Source: Armatimonadota bacterium (GTDB lineage Bacteria; Armatimonadota; Armatimonadia; Armatimonadales; Capsulimonadaceae). Taken from it: 64,000 nucleotides of DNA. The position numbers and the translations under genes were made by a program. The notes under the pieces were generated by a model. It did no database searches. It was not told the DNA's origin and saw nothing but the letters and a program-made list of their open reading frames with translations. Below are positions 45,855 to 51,107 of the stretch, piece by piece. How positions within the stretch are numbered: the first letter of the stretch is position 1; each line of letters opens with the position of its first letter. The stretch is from assembly GCA_025354405.1 (NCBI GenBank), contig JANXMY010000150.1, positions 85,411 to 149,410 on the forward strand, in the 5' to 3' direction.

Positions 45855-45918
45855 GAAATTCTGCTAGATAAACTACACGCAATTTTTGTGCTTCTGTTCG
45901 ATGAAAGGACACCACCCT

Positions 45919-46566
45919 ATGAACTCCGTACCCTTTACCACGCGCCGCGTCGCCCCACTTGCGGCGGCGTCACTTGCTCTTGCTGTGCTGGGAGCTGCAC
46001 CCGCCCGTGCCAGCGTGGTCGCGAACTCGACTTCCTTCAATGGTGTCTTCAGTGCCGTAGCCTCACTAAGTGGATCTGTAGTCACCGGCGACGGCACCTC
46101 GTCCAATTCGCCCATCGGTTTGGTCACTGAGCACTTCGTCTACGAAGCGACGAGTTTGCCCGTCAACAATGTGGCCTCTTTTGCCGGATACAGCATCTTT
46201 TCGACACTCGATGGCACATCGACGCTGTATGCTAATGTTGCGGGTACAGTTAACATTTTGACTTATACCGGCACCGGCACAGATACGTTCAATGGAGCGT
46301 TTTCGACGGGTATCTTTGCAGGAGCGTCCGGAACGGCACAGTTCAACGCGACCGTGCCACTAACCCCAACTACTTTGGTTACCACTAATTCCCCGGTCCT
46401 TTCGACGGCTGCGGCCCCGAATATTACCCAGCAGTTTCACGATGGGACGCTGATTGGGAGTTTTGCAGCGGTCCCAGAGACCTCTTCCGTCGTTTCGCTT
46501 GGCCTGCTGCTGATGCTTGGCGGCCTCGGGGTTGTCTTGACGGCACGCAAAAAGCGTGCCGCTTAA
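45919..46566 (+). CDS. PEP-CTERM sorting domain protein
   Basis: About 215 residues. It has an N-terminal signal peptide (LAAASLALAVLGAAPARA) and a beta-rich Ser/Thr/Gly body. The C-terminal tripartite signal is VPETSSVVSLGLLLMLGGLG followed by VVLTARKKR. This is a PEP-CTERM-like tail with VPE-T, a transmembrane helix and a basic end, recognised by exosortase for cell-surface or exopolysaccharide attachment. The start at 45919 follows AAAGGA; an earlier ATG lies 18 nt upstream. No exosortase is in the window. Confidence 0.85.
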   Translation: MNSVPFTTRRVAPLAAASLALAVLGAAPARASVVANSTSFNGVFSAVASLSGSVVTGDGTSSNSPIGLVTEHFVYEATSLPVNNVASFAGYSIFSTLDGTSTLYANVAGTVNILTYTGTGTDTFNGAFSTGIFAGASGTAQFNATVPLTPTTLVTTNSPVLSTAAAPNITQQFHDGTLIGSFAAVPETSSVVSLGLLLMLGGLGVVLTARKKRAA

Positions 46567-46627: not shown

Positions 46628-48589
46628 ATGGCAACCACCACTGTTCAGCCGCCTACCGGCCCCGCTGCACCCACTCCGCCGGGGGCGGGCGGCGGTCCGA
46701 GCAAGTCCTCCGGCATGGTCCGGGCAACGGCGCTGATGATGGTCACGGTGCTGCTTTCGCGCATCCTGGGAGTCCTGCGTGACGCGATCATCTCCCACTA
46801 TTTCGGGCGCGGGCCGCAGACTGATGCCTACAACGCCGCCTTTACCGTCCCCGACCTGCTCTTTTACTTACTCCAAAGCGGTGCGCTGTCGTCGACGATC
46901 GTCCCCATTCTGACCGAATACCGGTCGCAGGGGAAGGACAAGTCGGCGGATAAGACTGTCAGCATCGTCGCCTCCACCATCTTTGTCTTCATCGGCCTGC
47001 TAATCTGTATTATGTGGATCAACGCCCGCGCGCTGACGATCATGCTGAACCCCGGCTTTGCTGCTGATGAGGGGACGCTGCACCGGATCGCGCTGGCGGT
47101 TCCGCTGACACGGGTCTTGCTTCCCGCGCAGATGTTCTTCTTCCTCGGCGGCCTGATGATGGGCGTCCTGTACTCCCGCAAACAGTTTTTGATTCCCGCG
47201 CTTGGGCCGGTCATTTATAACTCCGGCATCATCTTCGGCGGGGTGGTGCTGCACCGGTGGCTGGGGATCCACGGACTGGTCTGGGGGGCGATCGGCGGGG
47301 CGTTTCTCGGAAACTTCCTTTTGCCCTTTATCGCGGTGAACCGCCTGGGGGTGAAGCTGCGGCCCTCGCTGGATGTGACTCACCCTGCGGCGATGAAGGT
47401 CTGGCGAATGCTGCTGCCCATTGGCCTCGGCGTGGCGCTGCCGAATATCGACCAGATGGTGAACAAAGCCTTTGCCTCGTATCTCGGGCCGGGTGACACG
47501 ACAGCAATTATGAATGCCTACCGGCTGATGCTGCTGCCGATCGGCATTTTCGCCCAGGCGATGGCCCTGGCAATCTTCCCGACCCTCTCCGGGCAGGCCG
47601 CTGAAAAGAACATTCCGGCTATGCGCCGGACGATGAACCAGTCTCTGCGTAATATTCTCTTTCTGACCGTCCCTGCGTCTGGCCTGATGTTTCTGCTCGC
47701 CGCCCCGATCATCACGTTCTTGTATGAGAGCGGTCAATTTACCCACGCCGACACGCTGGCGACCGCGCCTGCCTTGATGGCACTCAGCCTTGGCATCTTC
47801 GCCTGGTCCTGCCAGAGCCTTCTGACTCGTGGTTTCTATGCCCTGCAAAACTCCAAAGTCCCGGTGATCTCCGGGGCAATCGTCTCGGTGATCTTTGTCG
47901 CGATGAACGCCTGGGTCGTGCATCCGGTAATCGGTTTAAAGGCCCGGGTCGAGACGTTAACACTTCAAGCGAATACACTGCGGGAGAAAGCAGCTCTGGT
48001 GCAGCCGCTTCTCCAAACCGCGACTGATACGCAGCGCATTGTCGATAGCGCTCAGGGGCAGCTGGGGCAGCGCCGTCGGGAGGCGGCGACAGTCGCGACC
48101 CTCGGCGAGGCGCAGAACAGTCTCACTCAGCTCACGACAACAGTCCAGGAAGAGGTGACGAGCCTCAAGGGGCAGATAGAGGCAAAGAATGCTCAGCTAG
48201 CCGACGCTCAGAGTGAGCTGGAGCATCGGGCTAAGCGGGCGGTCTGGGAGCTGGGGCTGACCACGAGTATTGCCGCGACAATCCACATGCTGGCCCTCTA
48301 CTTCCTGCTGCGCCGCCGCTTCTCCGGTCTGCAGAGCCGCCGGCTGCTGCTGAGTATCGGCAAGATTCTGATTGCCACGCTGGCCCTTTGCGTCGTGACG
48401 AAGCTGGCTCTGGCCGGATGTGATACGGCATTCGAAGCTTATCCCCTTGCTCCCAAAATCACGGCCTTGATCACGCTGCTAGTCGCGGGTCTCCTGGGAA
48501 TCGGAACTTTTGTCGGGGTGGCAATTCTCCTGAAGATCGGCGAGCTGCAATCCGCGGTGGACTTGATACGACGCAAACGGGCTGGGTAA
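46628..48589 (+). CDS. murJ: Lipid II flippase MurJ with large coiled-coil insertion
   Basis: 653 residues compared with about 510 for typical MurJ. The MOP-fold transporter is clear: ALMMVTVLLSRILGVLRDAI, FGRGPQTDAYNAAFTVPDLL, GALSSTIVPILTEY, NIDQMVNKAFASYLGPG. It flips lipid II across the inner membrane for peptidoglycan synthesis. Between VVHPVIG and LGLTTSIAATIHML, normally a short loop near the late helices, lies a segment of about 105 residues (about 437-541). This heptad-rich coiled coil reads VETLTLQANTLREKAALVQP ... EVTSLKGQIEAKNAQLADAQ. The start at 46628 is set by the promoter; the ORF track begins 24 codons earlier. fhaA follows, as in mycobacteria where FhaA and MviN interact. 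Confidence 0.94.
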   Translation: MATTTVQPPTGPAAPTPPGAGGGPSKSSGMVRATALMMVTVLLSRILGVLRDAIISHYFGRGPQTDAYNAAFTVPDLLFYLLQSGALSSTIVPILTEYRSQGKDKSADKTVSIVASTIFVFIGLLICIMWINARALTIMLNPGFAADEGTLHRIALAVPLTRVLLPAQMFFFLGGLMMGVLYSRKQFLIPALGPVIYNSGIIFGGVVLHRWLGIHGLVWGAIGGAFLGNFLLPFIAVNRLGVKLRPSLDVTHPAAMKVWRMLLPIGLGVALPNIDQMVNKAFASYLGPGDTTAIMNAYRLMLLPIGIFAQAMALAIFPTLSGQAAEKNIPAMRRTMNQSLRNILFLTVPASGLMFLLAAPIITFLYESGQFTHADTLATAPALMALSLGIFAWSCQSLLTRGFYALQNSKVPVISGAIVSVIFVAMNAWVVHPVIGLKARVETLTLQANTLREKAALVQPLLQTATDTQRIVDSAQGQLGQRRREAATVATLGEAQNSLTQLTTTVQEEVTSLKGQIEAKNAQLADAQSELEHRAKRAVWELGLTTSIAATIHMLALYFLLRRRFSGLQSRRLLLSIGKILIATLALCVVTKLALAGCDTAFEAYPLAPKITALITLLVAGLLGIGTFVGVAILLKIGELQSAVDLIRRKRAG

Positions 48590-48598: not shown

Positions 48599-49807
48599 AT
48601 GGACATCTTCGAGCGTTTCAACAGCAAGTTCGGCAAATGGTACGAAGGCCTCTTCGGCAGCGACGGCGGTGAGCTGCGTCCGAAAGATGTCCTCCGCAAA
48701 ATCATTGCCGCGATGGAAGACAACCGCAAAGAGGGCTTCGACAGCAAGATTTACGTTCCGAATAAATATATTTTGGAGCTGGCGGTCGCGGATCCGGAGG
48801 AGCGGGAGTATCTGCTGTCTTTTCTGGATGAAGAAGAGCTGGTCGTGGTGCTGCAAAAGTTCATGGCCCAGAATAGCTATAAAACGCGCGGTCCGCTCGA
48901 TTTCACGATTGCCGAAGTCCCGGAGGATGAGCGCGAAGCTCGGCAGGAAAAGCTGCGGGTGAAGGTGCGGTTCGAGAAGGGCGAGAAAGAGGCTGCCTCT
49001 ATTCTAAACTCTGGAGGGGTGAATTCTAGAGGGGCGGACAAAGAAGAGAGGGTGGGGGTAAGCCCCGCCTCTATGGAAGACCTGCCTACCGTCGCCGGGA
49101 TCTCGTTTCAAAGCGAAGACGATGATTCGACAGTCCCCGCCGTAGCGTGGGCATCGCTGGCTCTGACCGGTCCCGACGGGCGCAAAAGCCTGTATAGCCT
49201 GACCAAGCCCGTTGTGCAGATTGGCCGTTCGCGCAACGGGGCTAACGACCTGATATTGGATACCGATGGCATGGTCTCCAAAGGCCATGCCCGGCTGGAG
49301 CGGGAGCGCGACGGCTCCTGGACCCTGTACGATCTCGGCAGTACCAATGGGGTACGGGTCAATGGAAGCCGGATCGACGGCAACCGGATCGTGCGAGATG
49401 GCAACGAGATTGGGATTGGGGAGACGATTTTGCTCTTCCGGCAGGCGGAAGTTCTGCAGCTTGAACTTCCCTCTGCCGATAGCGCAGTCCCCCACGCCGT
49501 CGTCATGCCAGTGCGCCGTGCCAGTCTGATCGGCTCCGATGGCGAAGTGTACGTGCTGGCGTCGGAAACATTGATCGGCCGGGCGGTCACCTCCGACATC
49601 GTGCTTTCAGACCCCTCGGTCGCCTCCAAACATGCCCGTATCATTGCCCCGAGCGGCACCTCCTGCACCCTCGAAGATCTGGGCAGCGATAACGGAACCC
49701 GGGTCAATGACCGTCTTTTACCCACAGGCCGTCGCCAGCCGCTTTCCGAAGGTGATGTGCTTCTCTTCGGGTCTTATGAGATGCACTTCTCTGCTGGGAG
49801 CGTCTGA
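48599..49807 (+). CDS. fhaA: FhaA-like protein: DUF3662 plus two FHA domains
   Basis: 402 residues. Residues 1-120 are the DUF3662 domain of FhaA (FERFNSKFGKWYEGLFG, YVPNKYILELAVADPEERE). The linker at about 136-160 (NSGGVNSRGADKEERVGVSP) appears to be encoded by a genomic palindromic repeat. Two FHA phosphothreonine-binding domains follow: VQIGRSRNGANDLILDTDGM ... GSTNGVRVNG and LIGRAVTSDIVLSDPSVASK ... GSDNGTRVND. In actinobacteria FhaA binds phosphorylated MviN and PknB. Having two FHA domains instead of one is unusual for FhaA. Confidence 0.9.
   Translation: MDIFERFNSKFGKWYEGLFGSDGGELRPKDVLRKIIAAMEDNRKEGFDSKIYVPNKYILELAVADPEEREYLLSFLDEEELVVVLQKFMAQNSYKTRGPLDFTIAEVPEDEREARQEKLRVKVRFEKGEKEAASILNSGGVNSRGADKEERVGVSPASMEDLPTVAGISFQSEDDDSTVPAVAWASLALTGPDGRKSLYSLTKPVVQIGRSRNGANDLILDTDGMVSKGHARLERERDGSWTLYDLGSTNGVRVNGSRIDGNRIVRDGNEIGIGETILLFRQAEVLQLELPSADSAVPHAVVMPVRRASLIGSDGEVYVLASETLIGRAVTSDIVLSDPSVASKHARIIAPSGTSCTLEDLGSDNGTRVNDRLLPTGRRQPLSEGDVLLFGSYEMHFSAGSV
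49003..49075. repeat. Palindromic repeat embedded in fhaA coding sequence
   Basis: acaaagaagagagggtgggg followed by gtaagccccgcctctat closely matches gcaaagagggcgggggcaag followed by ccccgcccctac in the intergenic repeat at 3820-3850. It is read in frame as the linker between DUF3662 and the first FHA domain. Confidence 0.65.
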
Positions 49808-49988: not shown

Positions 49989-51107
49989 ATGCAGATTTCC
50001 CCCTCATTCTCGGCCACATTGGCACAGCCGGCGGCGGCGGCATTATCCCTGCTGGGACGGCTGGCTCACGCGGTGCAATCGATGCCGGTAGAGGCCGCTC
50101 CCCTCTGGCCGGTCACAGGCACACTCACGTCGAGCCGGGTACGGGCGACGCTGCTGGAAATGGGGTTGGCGGCGGCCGACGAGGATGTCGCACTGGCGGA
50201 GGCGTTAGCGCAGGCAGGAGTTCCTCTGACTGCGGCCTCCCTGGCGGCGGCCCATGGAGCGCTGGCACGTGCCCCGGGAGCAGCAGCGCAGGCGTATACA
50301 CTGGCTCTGACACTGGAGCTTCCGACCTCGCCGGGAATTCTCGCGGCTCTAACCACCACACTCGAAGCGCAGGCCGGAGGCAAATCACCGCTTACGGGAG
50401 CCTTGCCGGAGCAGGTTATGGGATGGCTGGGCCTCGGGGTCGAGGCTGGAACGGCGCCGCCCGCCCTGGCACGTCACCTGCGGGAATGGATGCTGCAAAC
50501 GGGCCGCAGCACGGAGCATCGCCTGCTGGCCGCCGGAAAATGGGGCGATCTCGGATTGCCGATCACCGATGCCCGGACCGCACTGCTGCGTCTCGCGCTG
50601 GCTTCAGGCGACCCGGCGATGCGCAACGAAGCAGATGCATTAGCATCGCACCTCGAAGGCCAGCAGCTTCTGAATCAAGCGGCGGTAAATGTCCACCACT
50701 CCCGGCCGGGAACTCCGCTTTACTTTGCCGTGCCGCTGGGGTTCGGCGGGCAGCCGAGCATGGCGGAGATGCGGCTCTGGCTGCCAAATTCCGTGCCAGA
50801 CGAAGAGGCGGAGGGAGAGGCGGATGTTCTTCGCGTGACGGTGCGTGTCGCCCCGCCGCGTTTGGGCCGTGTGCAGGCAGTTTTGACGGGCCGCCTCTCG
50901 GGCAGTCTGGTCTGTCGTTTGGGTGTCGAGAAACCGTCATCCCAGCGTCTCCTCGCCCGTCACACCGGCCTGCTGGCGGAAACGCTGAGTACTGCGGGCT
51001 GGACTTCCTGCGAAGTCCTCTGCCGCAGCCAGTCCGAATGGCCCCCTCTTTGGCACGGCGGGGATGCTCTGCTGACCCCGCGTACCAGTGTGGACCATTG
51101 TGTGTAG
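49989..51107 (+). CDS. FliK-like (YlqG-type) flagellar hook-length control C-terminal domain protein
   Basis: 372 residues. The N-terminal 230 residues are Ala/Leu-rich and variable. The C-terminal about 120 residues resemble the FliK C-terminal (Flg_hook) domain: YFAVPLGFGGQPSMAEMRLW, VRVAPPRLGRVQAVLTGRLS, VEKPSSQRLLARHTGLLAET. In Bacillus subtilis an equivalent non-flagellar gene (ylqG) is paired with ylqH, as here. No flagellar genes lie nearby. The start ATG 49989 lacks a ribosome site; a TAAAGT box ends 4 nt upstream. Family assignment is moderate. Confidence 0.65.
   Translation: MQISPSFSATLAQPAAAALSLLGRLAHAVQSMPVEAAPLWPVTGTLTSSRVRATLLEMGLAAADEDVALAEALAQAGVPLTAASLAAAHGALARAPGAAAQAYTLALTLELPTSPGILAALTTTLEAQAGGKSPLTGALPEQVMGWLGLGVEAGTAPPALARHLREWMLQTGRSTEHRLLAAGKWGDLGLPITDARTALLRLALASGDPAMRNEADALASHLEGQQLLNQAAVNVHHSRPGTPLYFAVPLGFGGQPSMAEMRLWLPNSVPDEEAEGEADVLRVTVRVAPPRLGRVQAVLTGRLSGSLVCRLGVEKPSSQRLLARHTGLLAETLSTAGWTSCEVLCRSQSEWPPLWHGGDALLTPRTSVDHCV

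Follow-up and report, generated by a model that had tools for sequence, protein, structure and literature searches.

A genus-restricted insertion, predicted to fold as a coiled-coil hairpin, in the TM11-TM12 loop of an Armatimonadota MurJ

The window, i.e., the whole stretch of 64,000 nucleotides that was analysed on contig JANXMY010000150.1 of an Armatimonadota bacterium, encodes a lipid II flippase, MurJ, interrupted by a long additional segment and adjoined by a gene for an FhaA protein (Table 1). The flippase is recognized by the equivalog profile TIGR01695 with 315.1 bits (cut-off 235.55) and by the Pfam MurJ family PF03023 with 275.1 bits (cut-off 27.4), and it is the sole protein of the 3.6-Mb draft genome above the Pfam MurJ cut-off. 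Family scores and overall alignment are shared with the canonical MurJ/MviN of E. coli and Thermosipho africanus, as are the charged residues R45, R51, D66, and R299, which in the alignment to solved MurJ proteins correspond to R18, R24, D39, and R270 of the E. coli enzyme, reported as essential (PMC4790310). Two differences separate it from these canonical proteins: the ~104 extra residues between TM11 and TM12, and the replacement of E. coli R52 by Phe79, a site that is Phe also in close relatives and Phe, Tyr, or similar among the relatives in an alignment of 24 MurJ sequences. R52 is not family-defining, since the MurJ of B. cenocepacia is still functional without a charge at this position (PMC4790310). 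The window protein, ordinary apart from the insert, thus varies a known theme and does not constitute a new system.

The ATG at 46,628 is likely the start of murJ; the same MATTTVQPPTGP is found at the ATG start of a second species of the genus (L005, found a second time as L034, 'Armatimonadetes bacterium isolate 341R_concoct_144'), and the longer frame, opening at a GTG, overlaps the preceding ORF. This upstream ORF (45,886–46,566) ends in a PEP-CTERM-like tail (VPETSSVVSLGLLLMLGGLGVVLTARKKRAA) and gave no match in a Pfam search; its homologue in the second species is 66% identical and also adjoins murJ. On the other side, a FliK-like (Flg_hook) protein is encoded just downstream of fhaA, at 49,989–51,107.

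Table 1. Genes and predicted structural features at the murJ locus (positions of the window).
Feature	Coordinates	Strand	Basis
murJ, lipid II flippase, 653 aa (ATG to stop)	46628..48589	+	TIGR01695 and PF03023 above cut-off; aligns to solved MurJ; start common to second species
Insertion, ~104 residues (434-537), TM11-TM12 periplasmic loop	47927..48238	+	In L005/L034 but not in L006 or other relatives; dN/dS 0.20; exceeds neutral simulation
Predicted long helix 1, residues 413-481, TM11 into first hairpin arm	47864..48070	+	AlphaFold2 408-572; heptad periodicity
Predicted hairpin turn, residues 482-485	48071..48082	+	AlphaFold2
Predicted long helix 2, residues 486-571, second arm into TM12	48083..48340	+	AlphaFold2; heptad periodicity
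fhaA (FhaA_N and two FHA domains), adjacent gene	48599..49807	+	Pfam; presumed not to act on the insert

The limits of the insertion were drawn from a three-way alignment of the window MurJ with those of the second species of the genus and of L006, the nearest relative that falls outside it. The additional residues are bounded by VVH, which closes TM11, and by WELGLTTS, which opens TM12, while L006 reads VVHHTHWGVRGLGLATS at the same site; the L006 protein, which lacks the insert, is 547 aa long and shares ~80% identity with the window MurJ upstream of the insertion site. An earlier note, made from the letters of the window, had described an insertion of about 105 residues at one loop between late transmembrane helices, and the alignment confirms both its size and its placement, assigning it to TM11-TM12.

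The genome is a fragmented draft, and an assembly artefact or a mobile element lodged within the gene would be conceivable on this ground; the explanation can, however, practically be discarded. The insert is found at the identical site, diverged at 104 of its 312 nucleotides without indels, in the assembly of the second species, which excludes an assembly artefact; moreover, no further copy of it exists in the genome and no intein or transposon family was matched in Pfam. A derivation from elsewhere in the genome was also rejected, the searches returning only short DNA matches at chance level and no further protein match, as was an internal duplication, for which a single 24-nt repeat (79% identity, 156-nt spacing, BLAST E = 0.009) is unconvincing. 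No hidden gene is open in another frame of the insert in both species. Pfam searches with the insert yielded only generic coiled-coil matches, every one below cut-off, no significant match was found among PDB sequences, and, judging by titles and the openings of abstracts, no literature was on point for a MurJ with a coiled-coil insertion.

The MurJ of E. coli has 14 helices with both the N- and C-termini in the cytoplasm (PMC4790310), so that the loops following odd-numbered helices, including TM11-TM12, face the periplasm. The charge distribution of the window protein is consistent with this arrangement: Lys and Arg account for 27 of 130 residues in the cytoplasmic segments versus 5 of 75 in the periplasmic loops, with the insert excluded and the TM boundaries assigned manually on the basis of hydropathy and alignment. 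In particular, ALQNSKV and RRRFSGLQSRRL, which flank the TM11-TM12 pair, belong to the cytoplasmic, positively charged side. The insert itself holds no hydrophobic stretch that could alter the topology, as its highest 19-residue hydropathy mean is 0.37. Hydropathy, alignment, and charge pattern are all compatible with the plan of 14 helices with both termini cytoplasmic, which the full-length structure model is too poor to corroborate. Homology and loop charge therefore point to an insert that projects into the periplasm, on the side opposite to the cytoplasmic one considered in the earlier note.

The hydrophobicity of the insert recurs with a period of 3.5 residues, significantly more than in shuffled sequences (106 residues; p = 0.0015 in the window and p = 0.0085 in the second species). 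A hydrophobic class is retained between the two species at 25 of 27 a/d positions, a count that is descriptive only because the register was picked on the same sequences. AlphaFold2, given residues 408-572 and an alignment of two sequences, returned two helices with a mean pLDDT of 82.8 and a pTM of 0.58; the helices are antiparallel, mostly at pLDDT 85–93, and appear continuous with TM11 and TM12. The two-sequence model of the full-length protein is poor outside the hairpin, yet it reproduces the two helices and the turn. At the level of prediction, periodicity and model bear out the heptad-rich helix pair that had been proposed and speak against a disordered segment; the insert is accordingly predicted to be an antiparallel coiled-coil hairpin. 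A Foldseek search with the predicted hairpin retrieved only generic long coiled coils, none of them significant.

According to the earlier note, the insert could dock a regulator such as FhaA, encoded next to murJ, or a division component, and its projection as a coiled coil on the cytoplasmic side was to be checked. The adjacent protein has the domains of an FhaA, with FhaA_N (PF12401) at 36.2 bits against a cut-off of 25 and FHA matched in two stretches, and it has no convincing membrane span. Besides the direct adjacency of the genes, the docking idea draws on mycobacteria, in which MurJ is bound by FhaA at an intracellular pseudokinase domain located C-terminally (PMC6180346). The mycobacterial MurJ (MviN) and the window MurJ are alike in having an added segment and fhaA in the genome, adjacent in the window; the addition described here, however, lies in a periplasmic loop and is not a cytoplasmic C-terminal domain. 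No kinase domain was matched on the window MurJ by Pfam and TIGR profile searches, and just 17 residues follow TM14. Furthermore, murJ and fhaA are adjacent without this insert in three genomes (G002, G005, and G006), and in G004 they lie on different contigs. A cytoplasmic FhaA would be unable to dock on the insert because the TM11-TM12 loop is periplasmic, and the proposal, contradicted by loop, missing pseudokinase, and gene pairs lacking this insert alike, is very improbable; a cytoplasmic regulator such as FhaA does not explain the insert.

Within the family, several genomes (G001, G002, G005, and G006) have murJ next to fhaA, and FhaA_N occurs in 20 of the 31 phylum relatives searched versus 1 of 14 control genomes, that of Corynebacterium glutamicum. 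A MurJ-FhaA link outside the Actinobacteria, without the pseudokinase, is possible.

As for its distribution, the insert is present in only 2 of the 19 class genomes examined, the two members of the genus; in the other class genomes in which both flanks were matched, these are much too close in the DNA to accommodate it. It is missing from all other members of the family, order, and class with a readable site, including the ~80%-identical MurJ of the same family, so that close relatives lacking the insertion, the observation that the earlier note had named as adverse to its idea, do exist outside the genus, whereas within the genus both species carry it. The alignment of 24 MurJ is consistent with a genus-restricted insert. 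The phylum was covered by a profile search of 121 Armatimonadota genomes, which reads inserts from broken matches; as the MurJ match was fragmentary or absent in some genomes, it amounts to a survey rather than a census. Among the matches listed, the near-full-length MurJ cross the corresponding profile position unbroken with three exceptions: the two genus members, in which the match breaks off at 372-374, and G005, where a distinct loop with ~35 extra residues occupies this point. The conservation across the phylum that was to be checked is not observed, no other case appearing among the matches listed from these 121 genomes, and a phylum-wide conserved feature is ruled out by the alignment, the class genomes, and the survey together. 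A search of IMG/VR for further MurJ found none. Among sequenced relatives, the insert is confined to one Armatimonadota genus.

Between the two species, 64 of the 104 residues of the insert are identical (61%) and the nucleotide changes noted above occur without indels. Neutral simulations at equal divergence retained ~43–45 residues, with a maximum of 55 of 104 in 3,000 runs, and at least 85% of them gained a stop codon. The dN/dS ratio, estimated as the other selection measures from only two species, is 0.20 in the insert, about four times the 0.045 of the core preceding it, and 0.10 in the core following it. On the basis of these simulations and ratios, the insert is under purifying selection as a protein, much looser than that on the flippase core. 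Separately, the synonymous divergence of the two species is 1.37 in the insert versus 0.62 in the rest of the gene, and the third-position GC content of the insert is below that of the rest of the gene (0.667 versus 0.789).

An orthodox MurJ lipid II flippase would have gained its antiparallel coiled-coil hairpin on the branch that leads to this genus, and the arms would extend TM11 and TM12 by ~50 residues into the periplasm (~70 Å if fully helical). The hairpin may act as a protein-contact surface, either with itself or with another protein of the envelope or of cell-wall synthesis; the two lobes would keep their flipping mechanism. The description as a coiled-coil arm that is specific to the genus, projects into the periplasm from a normal flippase, is kept by selection, and probably contacts an envelope protein has about an even chance of being right. 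A partner among periplasmic division or cell-wall proteins is possible; the more specific proposal of a docking arm tethering the flippase to a periplasmic cell-wall synthesis domain, with handover of lipid II inside one complex, is unlikely. Little is known of how MurJ is coupled to the enzymes consuming lipid II, and a natural MurJ whose periplasmic arm is under selection would help in the search for a partner, if one exists.

The hairpin could also be a benign structured spacer, a self-folding element received by a tolerant short loop and fixed by drift without any partner, in which case selection would only keep it helical, soluble, and harmless. The looser constraint with respect to the core (0.20 versus 0.045), the very narrow distribution, and the unrelated extra sequence in periplasmic loops of other phylum members (~35 residues at TM11-TM12 in L015, ~90 at TM13-TM14 in L026 and L030) all fit such an origin; purifying selection along the whole insert and the lack of indels weigh against it, but the upkeep of foldability could explain both. 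A spacer is a serious contender, somewhat short of even probability, and nearly as likely as a protein contact. The insert mainly shows that the TM11-TM12 periplasmic loop accommodates a large insertion.

A further alternative is that the hairpin modulates flipping, for instance as a prop or brake of the C-lobe close to the periplasmic gate, in favour of which stands the predicted continuity of the arms with TM11 and TM12 of this lobe. The central cavity of MurJ, however, is enclosed by TM1, 2, 7, and 8 and not by TM11 or TM12 (PMC6465408), and the core is nearly unchanged with respect to relatives without the insert; such a role is improbable.

Other Armatimonadota MurJ resemble the window protein in having lineage-specific enlarged periplasmic loops among the last four helices, with no evident sequence similarity to the window hairpin; these are the TM11-TM12 loop of L015 (genome G005) and the TM13-TM14 loops of L026 (G050) and L030 (G037). 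A different kind of elongation is seen in L024 (G024), whose MurJ open frame of 727 aa includes a C-terminal extension reaching well over 100 residues past the last helix.
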